The position numbers were made by a program, and so were the translations under genes. The notes under the pieces were generated by a model. That model made no database searches and was not told the origin of the DNA. It saw only the letters and a program-made list of their open reading frames with translations. Positions 863 through 32,837 of a DNA stretch of 64,000 bases are shown here, piece by piece. The stretch's first letter is position 1. Every line of letters starts with the position of its first letter. The DNA is from Russula earlei (Eukaryota > Basidiomycota > Agaricomycetes > Russulales > Russulaceae), in NCBI GenBank assembly GCA_025769875.1, contig JAGFNK010000007.1, forward strand, positions 62,001-126,000, read 5' to 3'.

Positions 863-2325
863 ATGGGCATTGCACCAGGATTGTGTGCTGAGGATCGAAG
901 TGAGTCGCCACATATTGTGATGCATAAGTATCATTGAGTTGGGCGCTGCAGGCACACAGGTGTCAATCGGAACACTCACCGATGACGTCCTCCTAGAAAT
1001 ATTTGATTTTTATGGGCGCGAAGCCGAACACGACGATTGGTGGCATACACTGGTGCATGTTCGCAGGAGATGGCGACACGTTGTGTTTGAATCACCGCAT
1101 CGTCTGAAGCTGCGACTTTTCTGCACGGAAGTCACGCCTGTGAGGAAGATGCTGGATATCTGGCCGGCGCTCCCTCTCTTCATATCCTATGACAATCCCA
1201 ATGTCGGATGTGGAGGACATGGATAACGTCATTGCCGCACTCGAGCACAGCGACCGCGTCTGTGAAATCTACCTCGGAGATGTCCCGAGTCCGCTTTTGC
1301 AACAATTCGCTGCGGTGATGCAGGTGCCCTTCCCGACGCTGACCTCTCTCGAACTTTGGACGAATACCGGATCGGTGCTGGTCCTTCCAAATCCGCTCTT
1401 GGGTGGATATGCCCCACGTCTACGAACGCTTCGGGTGGACAACCTTCCCATTCCGGTATTACGGAAACTGCCGTTGTCCTCCCCTGACCTCGTCAATCTC
1501 CAACTTTGGAAGATGTCTTACGTTGAGCCTCAGACGATAGTCAATTGCCTTGCTGCATTGACCAGGCTCGAAACCTTTGATCTCACCTTTTATTTCCCTC
1601 CATCCCGTCATCATCGGACACGTCGACGCCCAATCCCATTGACACGCGTTATCCTTCCCAATCTTACCTCGCTTCTATTCAAGGGAGACAGCGAGTACTT
1701 AGAAGACCTCGTCGGCCAGCTCAGCATGCCTCTGCTTGACCACCTCTCCGTCATATTGCACAATCAACTGATATTTGATATGCCACAACTACCTCAATTT
1801 ATCAGGCGCACGGAAAAGTTAAAAGCACTCACCCAAGCAAATATTACCTTCTACGATTGGTTGGCCGAGGTCAGAATTACCGGGAAAACGGGCACGGCCA
1901 ATGACGGAACGTTCTCACTGGGAATCTTATGCACAAACCTAGATTGGCAGGTTGCATCTCTGGCGGAGGTCTGTGGCTCGTGCTTGCATCCCCTCTCCAC
2001 CTTGGAACATCTCGGCATCCACCAGGATCGATTTTGGCCGCTACATTGGCCAGACGACATGGATAACATCCCATGGTTAGATCTTTTACGTCCATTCACT
2101 ACAATGAAGAATCTGCACCTATACAAGGAGCTCACTCCACGTGTGGTGTCAGCCTTGCAAGAGCTCTCCGGCGAAGGAGAAATAGAAGTGATGCCAGCAT
2201 TAGAATGTCTTCTTTTAGAGGATCCCCACCCATCAGGACGTATCCAGGAAGCCATTGATCAGTTCGTCGCCACGCGACAGCTGTCTGGTCATCCCGTAGC
2301 TGTTCGCCCTTTGAATGGATTATAA
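863..2325 (+). pseudogene. F-box-like protein gene 1, frameshifted
   Basis: Agaricomycete F-box-like proteins are presumed substrate adaptors of SCF ubiquitin ligases. My model has exon 1 at 863-899 (start MGIAPGLCAEDR), a 52-nt intron 900-951 (GTGAGT to CAG) and exon 2 from 952. Exon 2 encodes the F-box-like start LTDDVLLEIFDFYG, the block LVHVRRRWRHVVFESPHRL and MLDIWPALPL. At about 1185-1225 the frame changes: the first frame stops near 1226, and the rest (DNVIAALEH to the stop at 2325) is in the next frame. Aligned with the paralogues at 3570 and 31273, this gene is 2 nt shorter between CATATC and GATAA, so a small deletion explains the break. No intron fits there. Downstream lie leucine-rich stretches like those of the paralogues. 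It is either a recent pseudogene or a sequence error. Confidence 0.75.
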
Positions 2326-3569
2326 ATTTGGTGGGAGGTCGATGATTGATTGATGAGTGTGCTCTGTGTTCCATGCCATGTACTCACATTCTCGTTTAGG
2401 CTCATTTCTTTATGCTTAAGACGCAGGTTAACATTACTATAATCTTACTTTCTTGCGTCTCTTAACCCGCATCAAGTGCGTTACCTACCAAGCACTCTAC
2501 GTTGGTGCGATACCAAGTCACGATAGTGACCTCGAAGGATGGATACACGTCCAGGCCTCAGATAATCTTCACCCTAGTGAAAAGGGCAGTGTTTATGATG
2601 AAGATGGGGTGTGGACGACTGGAGAGTTCAGATCATTTCTCAAAGGAGCACAGCATTCAAATGGACATGCGGAGCATCAAGGTTCGGTCCAGAGGCTGGG
2701 GTTGAGACTGCAGAAACGCGGTGTGCCGACGCGCAACTCGCTCGAGCTGGAGGAGGGGGAGGACCAAATCAATCACAATGTCCTAATGGAGGCAAACCAT
2801 CATCCTGTTCGAGTTGTTTCGGAGGTGCACGCAATCCATGTGAAGATGAAAAAAATTGGGTTGACCTGTAAGACTTGAAGCGATAATGTGTTCCTAGCGC
2901 TGTCAATGACTGGCGGCCTCGGCAAGGACGCACTCTTCAGTAAAGAAAATAGAACAGGGGATCGGGTATCACTAGGCGCAGACCCGTGCTTCGAATGGGT
3001 TCCCGCCAGTCATGGAGAAAAAAAATTTATAGAAAGTGGAACGGAGGGAAGTTGATAGACCCAGTTGTATGTTGGGTTTACCATCCATCCGAGTCAGCAG
3101 TCGTGGTTGAGGCCAAGCTGGAAGCCACGAGTGAGGAGTGACCTGGCAGATGTGGACCACGCCACACGCCGCTCCTTGCAAGTACGCCCATTCAACCTTT
3201 TAACACTGCTACATAGTACTGATCATAATACATGCAACGTCATGGTCCCATATAAATACACTGCCCAATTCTGTGGTCAGAGAGGCGAATTAGCAGTGTC
3301 ATGCCGCAGCTCAGGCTGTGCAGGTTGCCACCGTTACATGAAAGCGTGTGAGAGGTGACATATAAGCGAGACTCCCCTACTTCCTTCGACGCTCTGGCAG
3401 ATAGAAACTAAAGTCCTGCGCTAGGCCCTACTAGTATTGCAAAACGGGACGCAATTGAACGTACCTCACACCCATCTCTGTTTCAGCCTCTGCCAAATCC
3501 TGATCGATCGTCGTCTTTCTCGTAAACAGACAATAACATCATCAAGTATTCATCTCCCAGCACCTTTCG
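2326..3569. other. spacer with the left end of a duplicated segment
   Basis: No gene is supported here. From 2583 onward (AGGGCAGTGT) the sequence matches 29991 onward, so this is the 5' flank of the F-box gene shared by both copies. A TATAAATA at about 3251 and TATAAG near 3360 are shared with the second copy and are plausible promoter elements. Short ORFs here are not conserved between the copies. Confidence 0.55.
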
Positions 3570-5125
3570 ATGATGCATACCAGGCGAAAGGAATTGTGGG
3601 TGGAAAAGAGCCGAGGTCACGGTGAGTGTTTAGACGCACCGGCTCGCTCTTGTGGTCAATATCGAGTTGCATGAGTACAGGTCCCTTTCATAGAAATGTG
3701 ACGCTCCCAGATGAAGTCCTCCTAGAGATATTTGCTCTCTATGGGGGCTTATACAGAAAGAAGAATTGGTGGTTCAAGCTGGTGCACGTGTGCAGAAAAT
3801 GGAGACAAGTCGTATTTGCATCACCACGTCGCCTGAACCTACAACTTCTCTGCACACCAATCACACCTGCGAGGAAGATGCTGGATGTCTGGCCGGACCT
3901 GCCTATCCTCATACATCATATCGGCACTGCAGATCCGACTCCGGAACTTGCGGATAATGTCATTGCTGCACTCGAGCGAACTAACCGCGCGTCTAAAATC
4001 TTGATCTACGGGGTTCCAAGTTCGCTCGTGGAAAGATATGCATCGGCAATGCAGGAACCATTCCCGGCGTTGACATCTCTTGCTCTCTCCTCGCATGATA
4101 TTTCAGTGCCTGTTCTCCAATCTTCGTTTTTGGGCGGATATGCCCCACGTCTGGAATACCTCGAGGTGGAGAACATTCCAACTCCACTATTCCGGAAACT
4201 ACCCTCGTGTTCCCCTTCCCTTGTCTCTCTTTACCTTACGAACAACCTGTACGTTCCACCTGGAGTGATCGTCGATTGCCTAGCTGGATTGACCAGGCTT
4301 GAATCATTCCACCTTATCTTCCATTCTCCTCGGTCTCGCCCTGATCAAACAAGTCTACGTCCCCCTATGCTAGCACGCGTTGTCCTCCCCTCTCTCACCT
4401 CGTTTCTTTTTAATGGCGTCAGCGAATACTTTGAAGACCTCACTGCGCGGATCGACACACCGAAGCTTGACGACCTCTCTGTGTCATTCTTCAATCAACT
4501 TATATTTGATATTCCGCAGTTAACGCAATTCATCAGTCGCATTGAAAAGTCCACAGCACTCGATCGCGCAGAGGTTTACTTTGGCCGTCACTCGGTCGAG
4601 ATCACACTCAAGGTCGACGAGGAAACGTATCAAAACGGATTCCTCTCGTTGTCGATTTCATGTACATCGCTAGATTGGCAGGTTTCAGCACTGGAGCAGG
4701 TCTGCAGCTCGACCTTGCAGTCCCTTCCCAACTTGAAATCTCTCCATATCTGGCATGACGATCGTTTGACGGATGGCGTGGAGAACACTCAATGGCCAGA
4801 ACTCCTACGTCCATTCACTACTCTGGAGACCCTGATTGTACCCAAGGATTCCATCCCGTTCGTGGAGCGGATCCTGGGAGCTCTCGCTGGAGAAGGAGTG
4901 ACAGAGGCCATGCGCGCACTTGAACGCATTGATATTGACTTGGGGCCAGTGGAGACTATTCCAGAAGGCATTGAGCAATTCGTCACTGTCCGACAGCTCT
5001 CTGGTCACCCTGTAGCTGTTGAACGCAAATGGGAGCCGGTGGTTGATCGTACTGTGGTTCTACCTCCAATACTAAAGCTATTTACGGTCAGTGATGGAGG
5101 TCACAGGCTCCGAACCGCAGTCTAG
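3570..5125 (+). CDS. F-box-like protein gene 2
   Basis: Presumed SCF-type ubiquitin ligase adaptor; the target is unknown. I place exon 1 at 3570-3621 (MMHTRRKELWVEKSRGH), then a 59-nt intron 3622-3680 (GTGAGT to TACAG), then exon 2 at 3681-5125. This gives RGHGPFHRNVTLPDEVLLEIF; the reading frame that opens at 3626 lies inside the intron and has no ATG. The F-box-like domain spans about residues 22-60 (LPDEVLLEIFALYG, LVHVCRKWRQVVFASPRRL). It is followed by LDVWPDLPILI and a long leucine-rich region of degenerate repeats. The whole is about 500 residues, typical of these proteins. The exon-intron structure is identical in the paralogue at 31273. The frame is intact. Confidence 0.87.
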
Positions 5126-8517: not shown

Positions 8518-9346
8518 TGTCAAGACACGTACTGCTGATCACTAAGGACTCAGGAGCAGGTGGGCAAGGGTCGGAACAGACGGTACGCAGCGTAAATGGT
8601 GTTGAACAGGAGGACGAGCCAAACAACTAGAAGATACCAGATGGGGACTGGTATGTGTTGCAGGAGGCAGAGGCAAAGAGTAGAGGCCAGTGCAGTAAGG
8701 GGCTTTAAGCAAGGTGGTCGTTGAAGAGTACCTTGAGGACGAGGGAGGACTTTAAACTGAGCGGTTGCAGGGGAGTACCCAGGAAGATGAGAGTATCACA
8801 AATGGACAGTCTGACGACTGCCATGCTTCATTGGGGCTTATATACAGTGTACAGGATCGATTACAAAGCACTGGGACTATTCTAGACTCTTTGGTACCAT
8901 CCAATAGGACTACAGAGGCATAAACTTGCTTGTGTCAAGTTTCAGGCTTACTGAGCGCATTACTGATCATTGTGGAGCGATGACATCATTATGATGTCAC
9001 TGTGGGGCACTTAGTGAGCCTATGAGGTCACTGTGGAGTCGCTCAGTCAGCCATGATGTCATTGGAGCCTTGATGACATCAGATGATTTATGCAACAGTT
9101 TCTAAGAGTTTGTGCCACTGTTTTGGGTCCATGGTGGCTGGGTGGCCATGTGGCTGCCACGCGATGATTACCCGATTAGGAAACGGGTGCCTGGTTGTGT
9201 TATAGTGCTTTTGCAATAGCAATATCTTGTACCACAGGAGGGATAGCCCAGAAAATGGAAGGGAGTCGGCAATGCAAAGTGAGAGAGGTCTTTCTTGAGT
9301 AAAATAGGACAATCCTCGGCCAGGACTTGGCCTTGGTTCATAACAC
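8518..9346 (-). mobile_element. solo LTR (diverged relative of the 941-964-bp LTR family)
   Basis: It runs from TGTCAAGACACG to GGTTCATAACA on the plus strand and is flanked by CCAGG on both sides (8513-8517 and 9347-9351). On the minus strand it has TATATAAG (8844-8837), a near-palindrome (8804-8822) and a short hydrophobic reading frame ending at 8550, in the same order as the family at 14728. Removing it restores the accessory ORF of the host element. Confidence 0.85.
8550..8690 (-). other. hydrophobic short reading frame inside the solo LTR
   Basis: The minus strand reads LASTLCLC, then IPVPIWYLLVVWLVLLFNT, a likely membrane span, then TIYAAYRLF and a stop at 8552-8550. It is the counterpart of the frame at 15439-15639. 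Shared positions are VPxWYLLxxWxxLL and the preceding LAS(S/T)L. No ATG is visible at its start. Confidence 0.5.
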
Positions 9347-9967
9347 CAGGGTCATGAAGGTCCTCGAGAGCCTGGGCAACGTCAAAATGAAAAGGGTGGT
9401 CCTCAACTAAGAGGTGAAGGTCAGAGGCAGTGGTAGCAGGATGGGGGGCAGAGATGACAGGGCAAGCTATGAGCCTTTCTCCATAGGCGGGCTCTCCTCG
9501 ACCCATAGTTCCTAGAAGCATGGGTTCATCATTGTATAAAGTGATACATAAGTACGGTAATAGACATTTCCGTCCATTAAAATTAATGTAAAAGGGAGGA
9601 ATGTGCGTGTAAGGTTCATAAACAAACCAAGGGGGGCCAGGGTGAGTAGGGTCCGCCTCAGTCAGAGTAGGTGAAGGGGTCCCTTTGCGAATGGCGAGTG
9701 GATTGAGGGTGGCAGCGAGGTCCTGAAGTTTGGCTTCGTCTGGGATGATGAAGGTGCATTGGTCGATGATGTGTTGTATTACTTTGGGTGAGAGGGGTTC
9801 TTGTTTAATGGTGGGGGAAGGAGTAAGGATAGGTAAGGGGGATGAAGAGGGAGCAGGAGAAGACATGGGAGTATTGTAGGTTGAAGTAGTGTGTTTGTGG
9901 TGCCAGGCTGACCACTCAGAGGGGGTGGGGGTATTTATGGGTACTGACCATACAACATGATTCCATA

Positions 9968-11383
9968 CTAAGTCTGTAAGTACTGCCCTTTGTATGGATA
10001 GATGAAATCTGAAAAATGGGGGTCCATCATAAGAAGTTGAAAGCTGTGGAAGTCACCAGGGGAGAGAATTCCAGAAAAAAGTTGTTCCCTGGCAGCTATA
10101 TTAAAAATGGTGTGCCTGTGGTCGGGGATAGTGGGGTCATTGACTGAATAGGAAGGAGGGTTATGTGAATTGGCTCGGGGGAGTAAGGTACGTTGTTGTA
10201 TCATAAGTCCCTGAAATTGATGTTCCAGGTTGTCTAGGCTATCATCTGAGTGGTGGGATTCTGTGGGATCAGAGTTAGTGGTCGACATAGTGCGGACTTT
10301 GGTGGGTTGTTGTAGATGAAACATGGTGATGGCATCTTGGGCATTTTTAAGATTTGAGAGGGGCTCCCACGTGTCTTCTGCTGCGGAGTATCCCTTCCAC
10401 CGAACTCTGTACTGGAGCCGATTTCTATGGGTACATTGGGCGGTGATCTTCTTGACTTCGTATTCCCCTGAGAGGAGATTGGGTGGTGGTTCAGGGAATT
10501 TCGGTCCATGTTCGGTCGTTTCTGTGACCAGGGATAAGAGGGAAGTGTGAAACACGTTATGAATTCTCCATTGGGGGGGAAGTTGGAGTTGGTAGATGAC
10601 ATGAGAGATCCTTTTGGTGATGGTGAAGGGGCCGAATTGTTTGGGGCGGAACTTCTGAAACTGATGGGGAGTTTTAAGGTTAGTGCCTTCTAGCCAAACC
10701 TTTTGTCCTTCTTCAAAACCCTTGAACTTAGTTTCCTTGATCCAGTTGTTTTGTGTTTTTCTCATCGTTTCTTGTGCTGATTCCCTCATGTCTTTTAGTG
10801 CTTGGAGTCGTTCGTGGATTCCGGGGAACTTGGATTTGAGTTGGGTGCCAAGTCCTTGAGGGTTAAAACTGATGAGGAGTTTGTATGGGGTTCTCCTGGT
10901 AGTGGTAGACTTGTGGGCATTAAAATGGTATTGGGCTATGGGGAGCCAGTGTACCCATTCTTCTTGTTTCTCCCCTGTGTAGATGCATAAGTACATCTCC
11001 AAGGTCTGATTGGTCCTTTCTGATTGTCCGTCAGTTTGGGGGTGATAGGCAGTGCTTAGATTTTGGTTGATTCTGAGGATTCGGGAGACTTCTTGAAACA
11101 GGTTGGAGGTAAAGCAGGAATCACAATTGGAGATGATTTTGGAAGGGACCCCTGTCCACAGGAAGGCGTATCGTAAAAACAGTTTAGCCATTTGTAGGGT
11201 CCCCATGTCCTTATGGCAAGGTATGAATATAGCCGCTTTAGTGGAGTTGTGATTGGTAATGGTCATGATGGCGTTACTCCCTTCTGATAGTGGGAGATTG
11301 ATGATCCAGTCAATTGCCATGGTTTGAAATGGTTTCTGGAATTCGGGGGGAATTGGGTGAATTGGGGGACGAGTGGGGTGCAT
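9968..11383 (-). CDS. chromovirus integrase core with C-terminal chromodomain
   Basis: This reading frame carries the DDE integrase core: MAIDWIINLPLS (first D), the NCDSCF region (second D) and TDGQSERTNQTLE (the E). The GPF/Y-like module HQFQKFRPKQFGPFTI follows, then a chromodomain at about residues 295-345 (EYEVKKI, YRVRWKGYSAAEDTWEP). The chromodomain assigns the element to the chromoviruses, where it is thought to steer integration to modified chromatin. A Ser/His/Asp-rich tail of about 110 residues follows. The N-terminal zinc module is in the preceding frame (11429-12196), so Pol is broken by a frameshift near 11400. Confidence 0.92.
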   Translation of the reverse strand: MHPTRPPIHPIPPEFQKPFQTMAIDWIINLPLSEGSNAIMTITNHNSTKAAIFIPCHKDMGTLQMAKLFLRYAFLWTGVPSKIISNCDSCFTSNLFQEVSRILRINQNLSTAYHPQTDGQSERTNQTLEMYLCIYTGEKQEEWVHWLPIAQYHFNAHKSTTTRRTPYKLLISFNPQGLGTQLKSKFPGIHERLQALKDMRESAQETMRKTQNNWIKETKFKGFEEGQKVWLEGTNLKTPHQFQKFRPKQFGPFTITKRISHVIYQLQLPPQWRIHNVFHTSLLSLVTETTEHGPKFPEPPPNLLSGEYEVKKITAQCTHRNRLQYRVRWKGYSAAEDTWEPLSNLKNAQDAITMFHLQQPTKVRTMSTTNSDPTESHHSDDSLDNLEHQFQGLMIQQRTLLPRANSHNPPSYSVNDPTIPDHRHTIFNIAAREQLFSGILSPGDFHSFQLLMMDPHFSDFIYPYKGQYLQT

Positions 11384-11428
11384 GGAGGATTTGTTGGCCT
11401 GACAGGTGGCGCAACCCCGAATGTAGTC

Positions 11429-12196
11429 TCAGATGAAGTAACCCATTTTGGGCCACCAGAAGGATTCTTGGATTGAATACAAGGTTCGGGCATTTCCTGT
11501 GTGTCCTCCAAGAATGCTGTCATGATATGTGTGTAAAATCTTTTGTAGTAGGGGTTCTTGATATGGTACAACCAATTTTCCATTTTTGAACAGCAAGCCT
11601 TCTTCTTCCTGAAGATCGTGTTTGACCTTCCACATGAGGAGGTCCGCTTTTCGGTTTTTTTGTTCGACTAGGACTTGGGTGTAGCGGTCCTCAGTATGAA
11701 GCGTGCAAATGAAAAGCTTATCAGGGAGTGCCGTGATGTTTTGGTTATCTCCCAACCCATTGTTGTGGTCAGGTTGTCGCAAAAGAGCGTCTGCATGATT
11801 TGAGGTTCCTGGTTTGTGGTGGATTTCGAAATGATAATCTGCTAATGTGGAAATGTAACCTGCAATCCTTCGATTAATTTTATGGGGGAGTCGGTAGTGG
11901 GCCAGGTTAGCATGATCAGTAAAGATCTTGATGGGGTGTCTTGTTCCCACCAATAGATATTGCCAGTGTTGGAGTGCAATAATCAAGGCTAGGAACTCCC
12001 TGTCCCAAATTGGGTAGTTCCTTTCTGCTTCATTGAACGCATGTGACATATTGCCGATCATTTTCATTTTTCCTCTTGGGTCCTTCTGAAACAGGATTGC
12101 TCTGGTGGCAAATTGTGAGGTGTCAGCTTCTAGTTCATATGGAAGGTCGGGGTTGGCAATGTAGAGTTTGGGGTCATCGCAGACTGCTGATATCAA
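11429..12196 (-). pseudogene. chromovirus RNase H and integrase zinc-binding region
   Basis: This is an internal part of Pol. The RNase H domain shows YELEADTSQFATRAILFQ, DREFLALIIALQHWQYLL and FTDHANLAHY, with the closing motif NHADALLRQPD; the usual DALSR reads DALLR. After it comes the H2C2-like integrase N-terminal region (HDSILGGHTGNARTL, then FWWPKMGYFI), whose cysteines are lost or lie beyond the break. It is separated from the RT above by a frame change near 12200-12300. Confidence 0.87.
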
Positions 12197-12302
12197 GGTT
12201 TCTAGGGCTTATGGTCGCTTCTGGGGTCCAGAGAAAGGGGGTTCCTTTCTTGATTGTAGAGAAAATGGGGCGAGCGATTTTAGCGAAGTCTCGGATAAAT
12301 GG

Positions 12303-12900
12303 TCATTGGTAATTGAGGGCGCCCATGATTTGTTGTACTTGTTTCAAGTTATTGGGGGGTCTCGGCCAGTTTTTGAGGCCATCCATTTTGACTGGGTCGA
12401 TTTTGAGGGTTCCTTGGTTGATTCGAAAACCCAGGAAGTCGATCTCTCTTTGTTCAAAGGCACACTTGGATGCTTTTAGGAAATAAGAGTCTTTTTCTAG
12501 GAGATCAAGGAATTCGTGTGTAATTTGTTGGTGTAGTTGTTCTTCTCCAATTCCTGTGGCTATTGCCACATTGTCTAGGTAATTGCAGGTGTTTTCTGGA
12601 TACTTGAGGAGCCAGGATCTGAGAGTGTGGTTCATTGCTCGTTGAAAGGCTGCTGGTGCATTGGTAAAGCCGAAGCCCATTACCATGGGGATGAATGTGC
12701 CAAATTGAGTTTTGAAGGCCCCCTTGTGTCGGTCTTCTGGGTGGATTAGGATGTTATTGTAGCCAGCTCTGATGTCAAATTTGCTAAAGGTGGTTTTGCC
12801 CCTTAGACAGTGTAATTGTTCTTCCATGTTTGGTAGGGTGTGATAATCTGGAATGGTGGCATTGTTGAGTTTTTGGTAGTCACTACCATTCTTGGGGCGG
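12303..12900 (-). pseudogene. chromovirus reverse transcriptase (active site changed)
   Basis: It shows the RT core FSKFDIRAGYNNILIHPED, KTQFGTFIPMVMGFGFTNAP and CAFEQREIDFLGF. The catalytic YLDD reads YLDN here (about 12575). The ancestral GAC-GAT has a CpG across the codon boundary, and GAC-AAT is the expected result of deamination on the other strand. Upstream RT sequence continues to about 13060 in other frames (a match to LPPKNGSDYQKLN is visible with breaks). Confidence 0.88.
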
Positions 12901-13093
12901 TGCCATCCTTCTTTTGAACAAAGAAGACAGGGGATACAAAGTCTGAAATGCCATCTTTGATGAAACCCTTGGCTAGGTCTTCTTGTATTTGTCTTGATAA
13001 TTCTTGTTTTTCATTCTGGGGGAGTGGGTAAGTTTGGCAATCAAGGAACTTGGGGGCATCAGGTTTCAGGGTGATTCTGAAGTTGAGTTCTCC

Positions 13094-13681
13094 TCAACTG
13101 GGTGGGAGTTGTTTGGCTGCTTCTTCTGAGAAGACCTTCTGGTGTTGTAAGTATTCAGGGGGAATGATGGTTGTCCTTATCCATGCGGCCCATATTTTTG
13201 GTGATTTAGCTAGGGGTATGGGGGTGAGGAGGACCCCTAGGTGGTTTCTTAGGCGACCAGTGCTCCAGTTGACAAGGGGGTTTAATGCCTTTAGGAAGGG
13301 GTAGCCAAGAATCATTCTATCTTCTCCCAAATTTGTAACATAAAAAGTGAGAAGTCATGTGGTAGGGCCATGATGTACGGCCATATGAGCATAATGGGTT
13401 AGTGCTCCTCCTTGGTTACTGGTACCATCTACATTGATGATGGGTCTGGGGGTCCTGAGGGTTCAAAGTGGGATTTGTAAATTTTCCACAATTCCTTGGC
13501 TAATGAAGTTTTCCATTGCTCCGCTGTCTAGGAGCGCTTGGCCAGTCTTTCCATTTGTTGTGATCATAAAGGGAACTTTCATTGAGTTTTCTTTATGTTG
13601 GACAATGGTATCTATTTGGGCCTTAGTATCGACTGTTGTACTTTGGCCTAGAGAAAATCTTCCTTGAGGATGAGGTCCCAA
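13094..13681 (-). pseudogene. chromovirus aspartic protease region
   Basis: The frame 13681-13463 contains the protease active site block ALLDSGAMENFIS (DSGA). The next piece, 13330-13094, contains the C-terminal protease motif MILGYPFLKALNPLVNW. Between them the frame is broken by stops and shifts (13331-13462). It follows the gag zinc knuckle directly, in the usual gag-protease order. Confidence 0.8.
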
Positions 13682-15416
13682 AGTTTGGCTCTATCCTCTG
13701 CTGGTAATGTTTTCATGTGGGCTACCATAGTGGAGGCTTCCTCCTCTTTTGGTGGTTCTTGAGTTGGTTCGGTAGTGCGTGCTTTGGAAGTGGTGGGTGC
13801 CATGTTTTTAGGGCACTCCCGGCTAAGGTGGCCCTTCTCTCGGCAATGGAAGCAATGTCCTTCTTTTGCCAATTGATTCCTTTCTTCTTCAGTAAGTTTC
13901 TTAAAGTTGGACTTGGTGGCGTCCACTTGCATTCGGTCAGGGTGATGGGATTTGTGTTCTGAGGGGGAGTGTGTAGTTTTCCCTTTAATCTTCTCTCTGA
14001 TGGTGATGAATTGTCGATGCTGTCTCCTAGCTTCCTCCTTCCATTCTTGAAGGGTGGTGGGCCAGACATATTTGTTTAAGATTGCATGGTAGAGTCCGAT
14101 TTTTAGGCCATTTTTGAAACTTTCAATAGCAATGACGTCTGTTTCTGGCCACCCTGTTTTGTTCAGAAGTTGTTCGAAGGTGGAGATGTAATCGTCAAGG
14201 GATTCCTTCATTGTGTGTTTGGCAAGAGCTGCTTGGGCATCTTCTTTCTCCGCAGTATTGGTGAACTTGAACGTAAAGTCTGTGACAAAGTCATTCCATA
14301 ATGCTTTGTGCATTCTGTTGACAGGATTTTGGGCCCTGTTCACCTTTTCCCTGAGTGCGGTTGGCTGTGAGTTGACCCATTCTTTGATCTTTTCCCCTTG
14401 AATATAGGAGAGGGCCAGCATTGTTCATTTAAAAGGGGAAACCATTACTGCCTTGTCATCATTGAGGCCCCAGTATAGGTTGAATTCCATGATAAAGCAT
14501 TTTGTTTTGTTCCTTTCCCCTGTGAAGGCTCTGGGTTCTTTACCGCTGAGGGACCCATTAGTGCCTTGTGGTGCTGGGGCAGCTGCTTGAGGGGGGGGGG
14601 GGGGGGGGGGGGGGGGAATGACAACTGGGGGGGCCTGGGCGGCCATCTGAGGAGCCTGAGTGGTGGCTTGGGGTGGTTGTACAGTGACTTGGGGTTGGGC
14701 TGCTATAATGAGTTCTGGGGGGTTCTGTGTCATGAACCATTCTCCGGAGAGGGCCCTTGAAGGACCCTTCCTTATAGGAGGAAACCCAGCCTCTATGGTG
14801 TCACCCTGTTCACATGAGCAAAAGGGGTGAGTAGAGGTGTCCACAATATTGCGCGTGCATTGTCGTGCAAGCAATTCTCGGCACAATCGACATACAGCAA
14901 GCCCCACTTATTGGCAACCCTTCTAGCAATAAAGAACAGTATAAGGGCCCTTCTAAGGACCCTTTAGGACGACTCTAGGTGCTCTACAATGGGTACTAAC
15001 CTAGTATCAAAGACTCTACAACATGTTATTAGACCAACTCTAATAACTATAGAATGAACTATAAGGCAATACTAAGGACCTTAATAGGAGTATTAGGGTT
15101 GACTCTAAGGACCCTAATAGAGCTATATAAGGGCCTTATAAGATAACACTATTCCCTAACCAAACTACAAGTCCTCAAATGACCGGCCCTAAACTAACTA
15201 AACAGGAAATGAATCAGGTGCTTGCACGTGGACTAGAACAGCAAAACACGTGGACAATGAAAGCTCTTACTCAGCAGCTTACTGAGCATGACTGAGCATG
15301 CTCAGTAAGCGCACTCCGACTTCTTACTCAGCACTCTATTGTGCTTGATAACAAGGTTATGACTTGTTCTCTATTTAGCAGTTCTCTTGTAGTATATAAG
15401 CGCTCAGTAAAGTAGA

Positions 15417-15436
15417 GGACAGTCCTCAGACTGTCC
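15417..15436 (+). promoter_or_regulatory. conserved hairpin downstream of the LTR TATA box
   Basis: GGACAGTC, loop CTCA, GACTGTCC: a perfect 8-bp stem 17 nt after TATATAAG (15393-15400). The stem is kept in all four family members (loop CTCA, or CTCC in the truncated copy), and a weaker version is in the relative at 8804-8822. It falls at or just after the expected transcription start, so it would be near the 5' end of the RNA. Confidence 0.6.
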
Positions 15437-15438
15437 AT

Positions 15439-15639
15439 TTGTTTACGGCACTCTCTATTCCTGGGATACTCCTTAAGGACCGTCCCCTTGTGACTATCCT
15501 GGCCTCCTCTCTGCGTGATTGTTCAACTCTCACAGTAACAGTACCTCTCTGGTATCTGTTACTACTCTGGACTCTACTCCTTGCCCACGCCGTCTTGGAC
15601 ATCTATCAACTCGTCTCCAAGCTTACCCCTCGCTCTTGA
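15439..15639 (+). other. short hydrophobic ORF in the U5 part of the LTR
   Basis: The frame reads FTALSIPGILL, RPLVTILASSLRDC, then VPLWYLLLLWTLLLAH (a probable membrane span), AVLDIYQLVSKLTPRS and a stop about 30 bp before the LTR end. The region from VTxPLWYLL to the stop is open in all four copies of this family (A, B at 21745, C at 27552 and truncated D at 18355), and the differences among A, B and C there are mostly silent. A related frame is in the LTR at 8518. No ATG is conserved, so the start, if translated, would be non-AUG or supplied by splicing. Confidence 0.55.
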
Positions 15640-16139
15640 ACTGGATAGTTCAACAGTGAGTCTTGACATTCTGTGGTTTGAGTTCTAGGATTTCAATGGG
15701 TTCCTGATTTCCAAGGGGGTCCTCTGGTTCTAATGCAGGAGATTCGAAGGGTGTCTGAGTTTCAACAATGTTTTCTGGTTCAGGGGGGTTGCCTTCTGTG
15801 GAAGAGGCTTCTGATTCTGACAGTGGTTCGTAGAGAGGGTCGTTTCCCCTCCAGTAGCCTAATCCAAGGCTGTTTCTGAGGAGTTCTAGGTCTAGGTGAG
15901 TGTAGAGCTGTCCTCTTCTAAGTCGTAGTTTGAACCAATGATTGTTGATGAATTCGACTGGTAGTTCTTCGTTGTTTTCAGTGGTGACGTAACAAAGGAA
16001 GGTGTGAAAGCTGTCCCAAGTGGCAGTTCCTACAATGTGTTCGGGAAGGTCTGGGGATGGTCTGGGTCGGATGTGGACCCAATGGTTTGATGGTAGTTCA
16101 AGGTTGATCTCCAGAATGGAGTAAAGAAAACTTAGCTTG

Positions 16140-18354: not shown

Positions 18355-18800
18355 TGTCAGGACTCACTGTTGAACAATCCAGTTCAAGAGTGGAGGGGAA
18401 AGCTCGGAGATGAGTTGATAGATGTCTAAGACAGTGTGGGCAAGGAGGAGAGTCCAGAGCAGTAACAAGTACCAAAGGGGTATTGTTACTGGTAGCATGG
18501 AGAAGTTATACAAAGAGGAGGCCAGTGGAGCACAAGGGGGTGGTCCTAAAGGAGTACCCCTGGAGAAGAGAGTGCCGCAAATCAAATGGACAGTCTGGAG
18601 ACTGTCCAGTACTTTATTGAGCACTTATATACTACAAGAGAACTACTGCATAAGGAACAAGCTGTAACCTTGTTATCAAACACAATAGCTTGATGAGTAA
18701 GACATTTAGGGGGCTTGGTAAGCATGCTCAGTCATGCTTAGTTGCTTGCTGAGTAAGAAGGCCTTCAGTGATGAGTAATGGTTCTTGGAATCCATGTGAT
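18355..18800 (-). mobile_element. truncated LTR, copy D of the 941-964-bp family
   Basis: TGTCAGGACTCACTGTTGAAC begins at 18355, and similarity to copy B continues to about 18800, where it is lost. It is more CpG-depleted than copies A-C, so older. The U5 frame is still open on the minus strand (IPLWYLLLLWTLLLAHTVLD; complement of 18364-18624), and the hairpin (GGACAGTC/GACTGTCC) is intact. Confidence 0.75.
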
Positions 18801-18989
18801 CATCATATAGGACTTGTGTGAACTATACAGCCCACTTGCTGTTCTTTGCACTTACTAATATAGTCAGTAAACCTTGTTGACTCTTCTTTGGAGACCCAGG
18901 CATGTGAATTTCCATTTTGGGAGTGTTCAGGTTAAGTTTTCATTTTGTGTGTTGAGTGGTTATAAGGGTTGAACCACTTTACTGTAGTA

Positions 18990-19260
18990 AAGGCTGAGTA
19001 GCTCAGTGGCCATGAGTGCTTGGTCTAGTTGGTTAGGGGTCCTGGGTTCAATCCTGGCAGTGGGCTATCTTACAAGGTGACTTGGAGCCAAACTTGGCAC
19101 TGTTGTCTTGTAAGTATATAATGCTTGTTGTTTAGTCCCCTTTCTACTGAAGTCCATAGCTGGCTTCTGTATCAAGGGTCTTGGGTTCAATCCTCTGTAA
19201 TGGACTATTATGTGAGATATAACTGGAGTCAATCCTGGCACTGTTGTCTTGCTGGTTAAT
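18990..19260 (+). repeat. tRNA-like, SINE-like repeat
   Basis: TAGCTCAGTGG (18999-19009) resembles a pol III A box, and GGTTCAATCC (19045-19054) a B box, at tRNA-like spacing. A second unit with GGGTTCAATCC follows near 19175-19200 and shares the tail CTTGGCACTGTTGTCTTG. It does not fold as a convincing functional tRNA, so I read it as tRNA-derived repeat DNA. Confidence 0.55.
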
Positions 19261-21744: not shown

Positions 21745-22705
21745 TGTCAAGACTCACTGTTGAACTATCCAGTTCAAGAGCGAGGGATAAGCTCGAAGAC
21801 GAGTCGGTAGACGTCCAAGACGGCGTGGGCAAGGAGTAGAGTCCAGAGTAGTAACAAATACCAGAGAGGTATTGTTACTGTGAGAGTAGAACAATCACGC
21901 AGGGAAGAGGCCAGAATGGTCACAAGGGGACGGTCCTTAAAGGAGTATCCCAGGGATGGAGAGTGCCGTAAACAAATGGACAGTCTGAGGACTGTCCGCT
22001 ACTTTATTGAGCGCTTATATACTACAAGAGAACTGCTAAATAGGGAACAAGTCATAACCTTGTTATCAAGCACAATAGAGTGATGAGTAAGAAGTCAGAG
22101 GACGCTTACTGAGCATGCTCAGTCATGCTCAGTAAGCTGCTGAGTAAGAAGCTTCTCTTGATGAGTAAGAGCTTCCATTGTCCACGTGCCCACTGCTTTA
22201 GTGCACGTGCAAGCACCTGATTCATTTCTTGTTAGTTAGTTTAGGGCCGGTCATTTGAGGACTTGTAGTTTGGTTAGAGAATAGTGTTATCTTATAAGGC
22301 CCTTATATAGTTCTATTAGGGTCCTTAGAGTCGACCCTAATACTTCTATTAAGGTCCTTAGTGTTGCCTTATAGTTCGTTCTATAGTTATTAGAGTTGGT
22401 CTAATAACGCGTTGTAGGGCCTTTGATACTAGGTTAGTACCTATTGTAGAGTTCCTAGGGTCGTTCCAAAGGGTCCTTAGGAAGGCCCTAATGCTGTCTT
22501 TCATTGCTAGAAGGGTTGCCTTTAAGTGGGGCTTGCTGTATGTCGATTGTGCCGAGAATCGCTCGCGCAACAATGCATGCGCGATATTGTGGACACCTCT
22601 ACTCACCCCTTTTGCTCGTGTGAACAGGGTGACACCATAGAGACCAGGTTTCCTCCTATAAGGAAGGGTCCTTCAAGGGCCCTCTCCGGAGAATGGTTCA
22701 TGACA
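21745..22705 (-). mobile_element. solo LTR, copy B (961 bp)
   Basis: TGTCAAGACTCAC to GGTTCATGACA, flanked by GCAGT on both sides (21740-21744 and 22706-22710). It is inverted relative to copy A. CpGs are largely retained, so it is younger than the hAT gene it interrupts. The U5 hydrophobic frame is open on the minus strand. Confidence 0.92.
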
Positions 22706-25276: not shown

Positions 25277-27454
25277 ATGGTAGGAAAGGCACTATCTGAA
25301 CAGGTCAAAAAGCAGAAAGCACGCAGAGCCTTAAACTTGATGTATCAGGAGGCTGTTGATGAATACCACCAAGAGCAGCTCAAGCCACCAGAGTGGCACC
25401 ATGGTCTTCGCCCAATTGCTGCCAAACACAGCTTGAACTTCAAGACACTCAGCAATCTTGCAAAGGGTAAATGTAATCTCAGCACATTCAATGCATCAAA
25501 AAGGAATTTGTCAGAACAAGAAGAGCATGTGCTTGCCAATCTTGTTCTGGAGTCCGCAGATTGAGGGATCCCACTCACACATATGGCACTTTGTGCAACA
25601 GCAAATGCAATCATCAAGGCACATAATGGAGAACTATATAAACCAGTTGGAAAGGGATGGGCTCAAGGGTTCTTGGATAGACATCGTGACAAGATCCAGA
25701 CACATTGGAGCAAACCCCTTGACACACAAAGAGCACATGCTCTGAATCCTGAGGTGGTCCGAAAATGGTTTGAGTTGGTCAGGGAATGGATTGTTGCTGC
25801 AGGGATCCACCTAGAGGACATATATAGCATGGATGACAGTGGATTATCTCCTTCTGATCAGGGAACACAGCACGTTCTTGGAAGAAGGGGGACAAAAACA
25901 CAGCACAAACAAGGAATGGCCAACCAAGAAAATGTCACAGTTCTTGTGACTATTTGTGCAGATGGGACAACAGTCAAGCCATGCATTGTGTTCAAGGGCA
26001 AAAATTTTCAGGCCAGCTGGTGTCGAGACAATGTGTTGGAGGCAGCGTAAGCACCTTTTATCTTATTGTACACCCTCCCAAGTGCTTACACCACCTCAAG
26101 AATATCCTGCTCCGAGAATGGCTGGACAGATGGAGGCATTGCACAACAATGGATGGAAAAGGTGTTTGATGCTGAGACAAGGGACAAGGCCATGGGGTGC
26201 ACTTGTGTTCTCTTTGTGGATGGGCACAACTCACACCATACACCCAATCTCCTGAACTATGCAAAAGACAACAACATTGAGATTATTGGATACCCACCCC
26301 ACTGTACCCACGCACTCCAGGGCCTTGATGTAGCTTGCTTTGCAAAGATGAAGGAATGTTGGAAGGCCAAATTGCACCTTTTTGAGGAAGAATATGGCCA
26401 CGGCGTTAACAAGTCTGATTTTGCTAGGGTTTGGGGAACAGCGTACCTCAAGGCCTTCACACAAGAGCTTGTTGAGGCTGCATTCCACTCCACAGGGATC
26501 CATCTATTCAACCCCTACATCATCACGCCAGAGCAAATGAAGCCTAGTGAACCAACATCAGTACAGGCTCTTTTCCCACTTCTGCAAACAAGCCCAACTC
26601 GTGCCATCATGGCAGCGTTTCAATATGCAAGACCTACCAATTTTGATGTATCTCCATCAACACACACACTTCCTTCCCTATTGTCCCCCCCCACACTGGC
26701 AACTCCCACATGTTGTCGAGTACATGATCCAGACATTGATCCTGCACTTTACACACCTTCAAAGCGCATGAGACTGTTGAATTCAGCATTAGCATCCACC
26801 TCATCTGGCTCGTACCTCGTCTCACAAACTCACCTAACTGCTGCACAAGCATCACAGCTTGCTGAATCACCTGTCCTAGAGAAGCCACCTCCATTGCCAG
26901 AACCAGACTGGTCCCTCCTTGAAACACTAGACAACAACAGGTATCAGACACAAGAAGAACTCAAACAGCATATAGATACACTCACCACAAGCCTCAGATA
27001 CGCAAGACACCAGATCCATGCAAGGAACTTGGTAATTGAGGGGAATCAGGCTCAGCTCGTTGTCCAGGGGATGGCATTAAAGAAGATGAAAGAGTCAGTT
27101 GAGGCAAGGGAGAAGAGTAAAACAACAGAGAGAAGCACCTTATTTCCAGGCGGACATGGGCTTGTGCTCACAAATACTGAGTTTATTCAGAAGGTGGAAG
27201 AGCATAGAAGGAGTAAGTTAGATGAGGAAGAGGGTAGGAATCTGCATCGCACCATGAGAGCAGGGAAACAGGTGGAGAAGGTGAAGATAGAGGATGAATG
27301 GCAGCAAATCAAAGAGGCACATGAGAAGGCTGTAGACACATGGGTAGTGAGATGTGCACAACTTACCTCAAGTGGAACCCTCAAGAAGGACCTCCCCAAA
27401 TGCCCCAAGTGTCCGTTGAAGCCCAAACCAGCCCCCATCGCAACATCGAGTTGA
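25277..27454 (+). pseudogene. pogo transposase (DDE_1), one nonsense codon
   Basis: Exon 1 (25277-26046) starts MVGKALSEQVKKQKARRAL, with psq-like and CENP-B-like helix-turn-helix DNA-binding regions (to about residue 170). Exon 2 (26101-27454) follows a 54-nt intron (GTAAGC to CAAG) that joins LEAA to ISCSENGWTDGG. The catalytic triad is visible: MDDSGLS (first Asp), VLFVDGHNSHHTPN (second) and HCTHALQGLDVACF (third). The C-terminal third is charged and coiled-coil-like. A single TGA at 25562-25564 interrupts LESAD-GIPLTH, where family members have Arg; CGA to TGA explains it. Everything else is open, so it died recently. Confidence 0.92.
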
Positions 27455-27551: not shown

Positions 27552-28515
27552 TGTCATGAACCATTCTCCAGAGAGGGCTCTTGAAGGACCCTTCCTTATA
27601 GGAGGAAACCCAGCCTCTATGGTGTCACCCTGTTCACATGAGCAAAAGGGGTGAGTAGAGGTGTCCACAATATCGCACGTACATTGTCGTGCGAGCAATT
27701 CTCGGCACAATTGACATACAGCAAGCCCCACTTAGAGGCAACCCTTGTAGCAATAAAAGACAATACTAGGACCTTCCTAGGGACCCTTCAGGATGACTAT
27801 AAGTGCTCTACAATAGACGCTAACACAGTATCAAAGACCCTGCAACACGTTATTAGACTAACTCTAATAACTATAGAACGAACTATAAGGCAATACTAGG
27901 GACCTTAATAGAAACATTAGGGTCAACTCTAAGGACCCTAATAGAGCTATATAAGGGGCCTTATAGAATAACACTATTCCCCGAACCAGACTACAAGTCC
28001 TCTCATGACCGGCCCTAAACTAACTAACAGAAAATGAATCAGGTGCTTGCACGTGTACTAAAGCAGTGAACATGTGGACAGTGAAGGCTCTTACTCATCA
28101 AGAGAAGCCTTCTTACTCAGCAGCTTACTGAGCATGACTGAGCATGCTCAGTAAGCGCACTCTGACTTCTTACTCATCACTCTATTGTGCTTGATAACAA
28201 GGCTATGACTTGTTCCCTATTTAGCAGTTCTCTTGTAGTATATAAGCGCTCAATAAAGTAGCGGACAGTCCTCAGACTGTCCATTTGTTTACAGCACTCT
28301 CCATCCCTGGGATACTCCTTTAAGGACCGTCCCCTTGTGACCATCTGGGCCTCCTCCCTGCATGACTGCTCAACTCTCACAGTAACGATACCTCTCTGGT
28401 ATTTGTTACTACTCTGGACTCTGCTTCTAGCCCACGCCGTCCTAGACATCTATCAACTCGTCTCAGAACTAACCCCTCGCTCTTGAACTGGATTGTTCAA
28501 CAGTGAGTCTTGACA
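27552..28515 (+). mobile_element. solo LTR, copy C (964 bp)
   Basis: TGTCATGAACC to GTCTTGACA, flanked by GTGAT on both sides (27547-27551 and 28516-28520). It is inserted downstream of the pogo transposase. The TATA box, hairpin and U5 hydrophobic frame are all present on the plus strand. Confidence 0.92.
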
Positions 28516-31272: not shown

Positions 31273-32837
31273 ATGATGCATACCAGGCGAAAGGAATTTT
31301 GGGTGGAAAAGAGTCGAGGTCATGGTGAGTGTTTACACGCACCGGCTCGCTCTTGTGGCCAATATCGAGTTGTATGTGTACAGATCCTTTTTATAGAAAT
31401 GTGACACTCCCAGATGAAGTCCTCCTGGAGATATTTGCTCTCTATGGGCACGAATATATACTCGCAAACATATGGTGGCTCAAGCTGGTGCACGTGTGCA
31501 GACAATGGAGACAAGTCGTGTTTGCATCACCACGTCGCCTGAACCTACGACTTCGCTGCACACCATTCACACCTGCGAGGAAGATGCTGGATATGTGGCC
31601 GAACCTGCCTCTCGTCATATCTCATGACGGCACTGCAGATTTGCCTCCAGAACTTGCGGATAATGTCATTGCTGCACTCGAACGAACTAACCGCGTGTCT
31701 GAAATCTGGATCTTCAGGGTTCCAAGTTCGCTTGTGAAAAGATTTGCAGCAGCAATGCAGGAACCATTCCCGGCGTTGACACATCTGTCTTTTCTCTCGG
31801 ATGGTAGTTCAGCGCCTGTTCTCCCATCTTCATTTTTGGGTGGACATGCCCCACGTCTGGAATCCCTCGATGTAGAGAACATTCCAATTCCACCATTCCG
31901 GAAACTACCCTCGTGTTCTCCTTCCCTTGCCACTCTTCACCTTACGAACAATCTATACATCCCACCTGGAGTGATCGTCGATTGCCTCTCTGGATTGATC
32001 GGGCTTGAAACATTCCATCTTGGCATACGGTCTCGCCCTGATCAAACAAGTCTACGTCCCCCTATGCTGGCACGCGTTGTCCTCCCCTCTCTCACCTCGT
32101 TTCTTTTCAATGGCGTCAGCGAATACTTTGAAGACCTCATTGCGCGGATCGACACACCGACGCTTGACAACCTCTCTGTGTCATTCTTCAATCAACTTAT
32201 ATTTGACATTCCGCGATTATCGCAATTCATCAGTCGCACAGAACAGTTCGAATTACTCGATCGTGCAGGGGTTGCTTTTAACAGTCACTCAGTCAAGATC
32301 ACACTCGTAATCGACGACGAAACAGAGACAACTTTTGCAAATTTAACGCTCTCGTTGGCGATTTCATGTACACCGCTAGATTGGCAGGTTTTCGCACTGG
32401 AGCAGGTCTGCAGCTCGACCTTGCACTCCCTCTCCAACTTGAACACTCTCTATATTTGGCAGTATCCTCATCATGAAGATCGTTCGACGGATGGCGTGGA
32501 GAACACTCAATGGCTAGAACTTCTACGTCCATTTACTACTCTGGAGACCCTGATTGTAGAACAGGGTTCCATTCCATTTGTGGAGCGGATCCTGGGAGCT
32601 CTCGCTGGAGGAGTGACAGAGGCCATGCCCGCACTTGAACTCATTTATATTGACTTGGGGCCACTGGAACCTATTCCAGATGGCATTGAGCAATTCGTCA
32701 CTGCCCGACAGCTCTCTGGTCGCCCTGTAGCTGTTGAACGCACAGGGGAGCCGGTGGTTGATCGTACGTTGGTTCTACCTCCAATACGAGAACAAATTTC
32801 GGTCACTGACGGTCACATGCTCCCAACCGCAGTCTAG
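31273..32837 (+). CDS. F-box-like protein gene 3
   Basis: Presumed SCF ubiquitin ligase adaptor; target unknown. Exon 1 is 31273-31324 (MMHTRRKEFWVEKSRGH), the intron 31325-31383 (59 nt, GTGAGT to CAG) and exon 2 31384-32837. The F-box-like domain is LPDEVLLEIFALYGHEY with LVHVCRQWRQVVFASPRRL. It continues LDMWPNLPLVISHDG and then leucine-rich degenerate repeats to the stop. It is the closest paralogue of gene 2 (3570-5125), with identical intron position and length and near-identical stretches such as LRPPMLARVVLPSLTSFLFN. The main differences are small indels in the C-terminal half. The frame that opens at 31329 starts inside the intron without an ATG. Confidence 0.88.

Follow-up and report, generated by a model that had tools for sequence, protein, structure and literature searches.

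The stretch of DNA analyzed here, referred to as the window, comprises 64,000 nt of a Russula earlei contig and carries LTRs of two families. The LTRs at 14728, 18355, 21745 and 27552 belong to one family (A), in which the partial copy represents a diverged subfamily, and the LTR at 8518-9345 represents a second family (X). Target duplications of 5 bp lie directly at both ends of 14728-15668, 21745-22705, 27552-28515 and 8518-9345, indicating that these LTRs are solo. The features of these LTRs, with positions counted in the window, are as follows.

8518..9345, reverse strand: family X LTR, solo, inside another gypsy element, target duplication CCAGG
8527..8532, reverse strand: GTACGT, putative 5' splice site of family X
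8550..8690, reverse strand: family X U5 micro-ORF, 46 codons
14728..15668, forward strand: LTR copy A, solo, TGTCA...TGACA, with the 5-bp target duplication TTCTG on both sides
15393..15399, forward strand: TATATAA box, upstream of the presumed RNA start
15418..15425, forward strand: GGACAGTC, 5' arm of a palindrome above the presumed RNA start, by direct reading
15428..15437, forward strand: AGACTGTCCA, presumed to be both the start of the mRNA and the self-primer; its reverse complement TGGACAGTCT is the primer-binding site after the 5' LTR of full elements
15499..15639, forward strand: U5 micro-ORF of copy A, 46 codons with a CTG start and a TGA stop, hydropathy indicating one membrane span
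15656..15661, forward strand: GTGAGT, putative 5' splice site of copy A, the last exon base being the A at 15655
18355..18770, reverse strand: partial LTR copy B, core frame open, tail with a 1-nt length change
21745..22705, reverse strand: LTR copy C, solo, target duplication GCAGT
21774..21914, reverse strand: U5 micro-ORF of copy C
27552..28515, forward strand: LTR copy D, solo, target duplication GTGAT
28346..28486, forward strand: U5 micro-ORF of copy D, first codon W and not CTG, coordinates taken from the 29-nt LTR-end offset of A and C

The element that surrounds the X LTR, at 9347-14424 on the reverse strand, is a different gypsy chromovirus, whose gag has a zinc knuckle and which encodes a Tf2-1-like SH3 domain and a chromodomain. 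An extra frame follows the chromodomain and is the site into which the solo X LTR was inserted. The ORF at 9168-10052 (reverse strand) was considered as a third gene running into the X LTR and was rejected as an effect of the insertion, the X LTR being solo with its own target duplication. Elsewhere in the window, a DDE superfamily endonuclease (transposase) frame at 26051-27454 (forward strand) lies just before LTR copy D, and a tRNA-Ala (GGC) is predicted at 18978-19065 (forward strand). Long frames at 1144-5125 and 31329-32837 have tandem repeats and a dispersed duplicate and are leucine-rich and F-box-like by eye only.

A sequence-only reading of the window had proposed a micro-ORF in the A-family U5 that ends about 30 bp before the LTR end. 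In copy A this frame runs from CTG at 15499 to TGA at 15639, 29 nt before 15668. The frame had been described as open in all four A copies. It is open in A, C and D, but in the partial copy at 18355-18770 only the core is open, and the 1-nt change in the tail loses the common stop. A matching layout with a related frame had also been noted in the diverged LTR, then placed at 8518-9346. This observation holds, as the LTR at 8518-9345, which codes on the reverse strand, has the TATATAA box, the hairpin and a 46-codon frame at 8690-8550 as in A.

We searched the genome (66.6 Mb, 1,374 contigs) for further copies; in each query, the 40 best of the 2,148-2,728 first-look candidates were scored. The sample, drawn from the window and the first 88 loci, comprises 117 distinct near-complete copies, 76 A-type and 41 X. 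An ungapped 46-codon block is present in 109 of the 117 (72 A-type, 37 X), and the eight copies with length changes were left out of the counts. A further U5 subfamily with VPFWYLLLVWTMLFANF occurs at three loci (L010, L011, L021), and its core is related to both A and X.

Between the two diverged LTR families the U5 frame is gap-free over 46 codons, with a common CTG start and a common TGA stop. The CTG is present in 68/72 A-type and 37/37 X copies. It has a purine at -3 in 57/72 A-type copies (15/72 are without) and 37/37 X copies, and G at +4 in 71/72 and 37/37, respectively. The TGA is present in 72/72 A-type and 36/37 X copies. The lack of a conserved ATG had been named as the main weakness of a coding interpretation. 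An ATG is indeed missing, but the conserved CTG offers an explanation. The best 19-residue hydropathy of the peptide is ~2.0 in both families, and the frame matched no Pfam family at E up to 1. Judged by these features, the U5 product appears to be a 46-residue membrane peptide that is started at CUG instead of AUG. We can only guess at its function, perhaps that of a membrane helper when particles are assembled or released.

The U5 frame is open throughout in 45/72 A-type and 36/37 X copies. At codon 37, A-type copies have CGA (31), CAA (16) or TGA (25), and the only other A-type stops are two at codon 18. The stops at codon 37 resemble the CpG decay of dead copies. Of the two remaining forward frames, one is open in 2/72 and the other in 0/72 A-type copies, and in X the corresponding counts are 7/37 and 31/37. 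Because one other X frame is open in 31/37 copies, openness alone cannot distinguish the U5 frame in this family, and the case for coding is not built on openness.

The two families were also compared in a permutation test, in which substitutions were shuffled among sites with the same base and amino-acid BLOSUM similarity was scored per frame. The window pair of A and X has 68 differences in 141 nt, and the peptides still align gap-free. For this pair the U5 frame scores 84, compared to 17 ± 16 after permutation, and 0 of 5000 permutations reach the observed score; the other frames give P = 0.22 and 0.46. We also drew 20 random A-X pairs and permuted each of them 500 times; the U5 frame gave P < 0.01 in 20/20 pairs and the other frames in 0/20. 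The tail alone (codons 33-46) reached P < 0.01 in only 4/20 random A-X pairs, which places the constraint on the membrane core and the start. Of the core and polar tail that had been proposed to be kept open, the tail shows weaker conservation than the core and is interrupted in some copies. The frame-specific similarity of these sequences supports selection on a small membrane peptide in U5, as originally suggested.

U5 could instead be conserved as RNA or DNA for priming, packaging or integration, the frame being a by-product of pyrimidine-rich sequence. The self-primer and the LTR end are near by, T- and C-rich DNA reads as a Leu-rich peptide, and the second X frame that is open in 31/37 copies would fit this explanation. 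However, the similarity between A and X is frame-specific, and because permutation was carried out within base classes, composition was kept in the test. We consider conservation at the RNA or DNA level alone to be highly improbable as the origin of the frame.

A candidate full X copy spans 10.5 kb (C265:3470-13978; the two ends were read), with a GTTCT duplication, a purine tract before the 3' LTR and an integrase that carries a Tf2-1-like SH3 domain and a chromodomain. The X sequence L059:3-1250 encodes an integrase core and then a chromodomain, with rve, SH3_Tf2-1 and Chromo above Pfam cut-offs. By its domains, X is a Ty3/gypsy chromovirus; the internal region of A is known from 161 nt of one copy. 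The LTR end is followed by TC and TGGACAGTCT, and in both families the hairpin below TATATAA contains its reverse complement, AGACTGTCCA. This primer-binding site and the presumed first RNA bases are complementary at 10/10 nt in X and A. A search for LTR-end/primer-site junctions returned 431 matches, 65 of them with an A-type end, and a reversed-pattern control of the junction returned 0 matches. With the RNA start presumed to lie at AGACTGTCCA, the A and X LTRs apparently belong to self-priming Ty3/gypsy elements.

This arrangement resembles that of the Tf1/sushi group of self-priming Ty3/gypsy elements, in which the primer site just past the 5' LTR is complementary to the RNA start. In Tf1 this pairing involves the first 11 bases of the RNA (PMC7175516), compared to 10/10 nt here. 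X also shares with this group a chromodomain integrase with a Tf2-1-like SH3 domain. Unlike the Tf1/sushi group, the elements described here have a U5-coded peptide, two conserved genes before gag and a primer site inside a putative intron.

The two genes before gag, ORF0 and ORF2, were characterized in X copy L063. ORF0 is 312 codons long from stop to stop and 307 codons long from an AG|TG. Genomic matches to ORF0 (127 scored of 877 candidates) are without a stop in 108/127 cases, and those to ORF2 (150 scored of 579 candidates) are without a stop in ~88 cases and with a stop in 62/150, both by hand count. Among the 65 A-type junctions, at least 19 have a match to an ORF0 homologue within 300 nt (hand count; 107 of 597 candidates scored). 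When L063 was compared to seven copies over the columns of L063, dN/dS was 0.10-0.28 for ORF0 and 0.02-0.09 for ORF2 (153 codons). Almost all values for the other frames are close to 1 or higher, with 0.52 and 0.65 as the two lowest, and one is undefined.

Both ORF0 and ORF2 of L063 are without internal Met. Fourteen ORF0 homologues were found, the second protein search having scored only the 7,996 candidates that share most words, and the named matches come from Russula earlei and R. ochroleuca. Twelve of the 14 have no Met in 4,147 internal residues, and these 12 are related among themselves and are not 12 independent cases. Two R. earlei homologue models contain Met. The 12 Met-free homologues begin with V-S (six), V-A (two), V-D (one), M-S (two) or M-Y (one); one of the six V-S homologues (P0009) is cut short and begins inside the domain. 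When ORF0 and ORF2 were shuffled synonymously, the shuffles held a mean of 2.6 and 2.4 out-of-frame ATG, with zero in 4.5% and 3.6% of shuffles. Avoidance of out-of-frame ATG inside each ORF alone is therefore modest (P = 0.045 and P = 0.036).

For ORF2, the search for homologues gave 0 matches at E 0.001 from 331 candidates, and the end of the R. ochroleuca gene model P0014 resembles ORF2 by eye. Neither ORF0 nor ORF2 matched a Pfam family at E up to 1. No solved relative of ORF0 was found by sequence, and a fold comparison gave no clear match, with the model confident only over a C-terminal domain of ~155 residues.

In three X copies (L054, L063 and L068), the 1,793-1,795 nt from AGACTGTCCA on contain 0 ATG, compared to 11.1-11.5 expected from dinucleotides, and CAT occurs 28-33 times in the same stretch. 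The other four X copies read over the full stretch contain 2, 2, 7 and 10 ATG. In addition, L007, an older decayed copy split by an A LTR, has 6 ATG in its first 1,208 nt, where the clean copies have none. At 26 comparable ATGs in the five ATG-bearing copies (L007 included), the three clean copies have ACG at 24 and GTG at 2. The ATGs of the other copies would mostly represent later C-to-T decay.

The LTRs of the window contain 12, 10, 10 and 14 ATG in U3, compared to 0, 0, 1 and 0 in R-U5. ATG avoidance thus starts at the presumed RNA start. Across the sampled copies, the mean number of ATG in R-U5 is 1.08 in A-type copies (2.67 expected; zero in 21/76) and 0.73 in X copies (2.13 expected; zero in 22/41), and CAT in R-U5 is above expectation in both. 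We read the residual ATGs as decay. The 3' end of the element has no ATG shortage, with 27 in 1,500 nt compared to 19.5 expected. In L007, a gag-like ATG frame lies ~3.1 kb after the LTR (by eye; the distance comes from two pieces). The 1,305 nt before this frame contain 7 ATG compared to 14.0 expected, and CAT is also low there, at 16 compared to 20.9. L007 is compatible, as weak evidence, with an AUG-free leader of ~3.4 kb that would extend to gag.

The AUG-free stretch could be explained without splicing. A polycistronic RNA would then use near-cognate starts (CUG for the U5 frame, GUG for ORF0 and ORF2) with leaky scanning to the gag AUG, in the manner of ORF I of rice tungro bacilliform virus (RTBV). 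In RTBV, ORF I starts at AUU, ORFs I and II are without internal AUG over 900 nt, and splicing serves another product (PMC5902531). Consistent with such an RNA, V is the first residue of 9/12 Met-free ORF0 homologues, as though their models had been started at GTG, and the unspliced ORF2 GTG has A at -3. In A and X alike, the -3 base of the unspliced ORF0 GTG is C, which argues against such an RNA, and so does the sequence around the LTR end.

A donor-like hexamer lies near the LTR end in both families. It is GTGAGT in 66/67 A-type rows with a recognized LTR end, and 8/9 A rows without one, which are outside the donor count, hold AGTGAGT by eye. In X it is GTACGT in 32/41 rows, GTATGT in 3/41 and GTACAT in 6/41. 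The last exon base before the hexamer is A in 108/108 rows, such that the putative leader exon ends CA|GTGAGT in A and CA|GTACGT in X. The putative first intron, 59 nt in the A copy and 62 nt in X (L063), contains the primer-binding site. In L063, the first AG|TG past the primer site opens ORF0 at the 62-nt spacing, and another AG|TG opens ORF2. The 1.5 kb that follow the LTR of L063 contain just four AG|TG, and the other two open 74 and 2 codons. Among nine X-type sequences, the LTR/primer junction is present in seven, with CTCAAG|TG in 7/7, and the ORF0-ORF2 gap is present in eight, with CTAAAG|TG in 8/8. Joining the exon A to TG gives ATG for both ORF0 and ORF2. ATG would likewise result from an internal donor, AAAA(A)|GTAAGA, which lies 68 nt ahead of the ORF2 acceptor. 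In L063 the ORF0-ORF2 gap (about 3289-3370) has a hairpin-like GGTTCTTA..TAAGAACC that holds a GTAAGA donor and is followed by AATAAA-like motifs.

If the ATG is made by splicing in X, the same arrangement is expected in family A. The A copy (one of the 65 junctions, 161 nt read) has TTCAACA|GTGAGT..TGGACAGTCT..GCTGACC..CATCAAG|TGTCC, with a spacing of 59 nt and in frame with the following ORF0 match, as expected from X. In both families the joined ORF0 AUG has A at -3. Both putative acceptors, of ORF0 and ORF2, are AAG, and AAG acceptors are less usual in fungi. A genome-wide search for spliced retrocopies with the U5-donor A|TG junction gave 0 exact and 2 one-mismatch matches for X. For A it gave 11 one-mismatch matches and 2 exact ones; of the exact matches, one is in unrelated sequence and the other is an LTR whose end has changed. 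No spliced genomic copy was found in this search for the U5-donor junction, in which the A-family exact matches were read. The sequences suggest that the AUG start codons of ORF0 and ORF2 seem to be made only by RNA splicing. Translation of an unspliced polycistronic RNA leaves unexplained the donor-like hexamer in both families, the A that always precedes it, the spacing of 59-62 nt and the matching arrangement in the A copy, and we regard it as unlikely.

The sequence-only reading had offered, as an alternative to a separate peptide, that U5 is an exon spliced to downstream sequence. The frame does lie on what may be a leader exon, whose donor-like site is conserved, but it stops before this site in A and X, so the U5 peptide would not be fused to the next exon. 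Two other splice arrangements were dropped: a U3 donor joined in frame to the U5 frame failed on phase, and an acceptor CAG just before the VP codons was abandoned because the frame is conserved upstream to the CTG. The U5 frame might also be the N-terminal membrane part of ORF0, reached by readthrough or splicing, with the separate peptide of A and X being derived. In L063 and L068 the two frames are in the same reading frame, with three TGA between them, and in the R. ochroleuca model P0014, in which introns are possible, a stop-free hydrophobic segment precedes ORF0. However, the three stops in X are in frame, and the P0014 segment was rejected as a homologue of the U5 peptide, since its similarity is not significant (156/1000 shuffles reach the score with X and 568/1000 with A). 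We find an origin of the U5 frame as part of ORF0 improbable.

In the model that we favor, the RNA would start at AGACTGTCCA, below TATATAA. A scanning ribosome would sometimes start at the CUG and make the 46-residue membrane peptide as the first of several leader products. On unspliced RNA, ribosomes that miss the CUG would meet no AUG for 1.8 kb or more, perhaps for the ~3.4 kb to gag. A splice between the CA|GT close to the LTR end and AAG|TG would join A to TG and create the ORF0 AUG, and the ORF2 AUG would be made likewise, from the U5 donor or the internal donor. The same splice would remove the primer-binding site and would separate reverse-transcribable RNA from RNA that makes accessory proteins. 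We think it likely that the U5 frame is a real, CUG-started gene of self-priming Ty3/gypsy elements with a scanning leader and splice-made AUGs for ORF0 and ORF2. With the balance only slightly in its favor, we further propose that this one splice acts as a switch. By removing the primer site and building the accessory AUG, it would leave each RNA with one of two exclusive roles, as template for replication or as accessory mRNA. The unspliced RNA would be kept for gag because the 5' kilobases are purged of AUG, and the CUG-started U5 peptide would come from both RNAs.

By analogy, RTBV is the nearest precedent for an AUG-purged leader with a non-AUG first frame. As in RTBV and badnaviruses (pararetroviruses), the frames upstream of the main polyprotein are free of internal AUG. 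Unlike in RTBV, the stretch here is at least 1.8 kb rather than 900 nt and the AUG of the extra genes is seemingly splice-made; no relationship is claimed. In murine leukaemia viruses, Glyco-Gag is a CUG-started, membrane-bound leader product that extends Gag. The U5 peptide is likewise proposed to be CUG-started, membrane-bound and made from the leader, but it would be separate and is coded in the LTR itself. A figure of fungal elements in PMC2864245 shows an "additional ORF" without an assigned function, which may overlap with ORF0. No earlier report of this arrangement was found in open-licence literature among the matches listed, and three features seem to be new: a peptide encoded in U5, an intronic primer site, and start codons that arise when this intron is removed.

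The question of how a retroelement allots one RNA to both translation and replication is still open. In the elements described here a single splice may decide, a case that is built on sequence only. Our analysis suggests start codons that are absent from the DNA. Standard annotation can miss genes that have no ATG and lie inside an LTR, and a search for AUG-free sense strands with AG|TG acceptors may serve as a rule for finding more cases.
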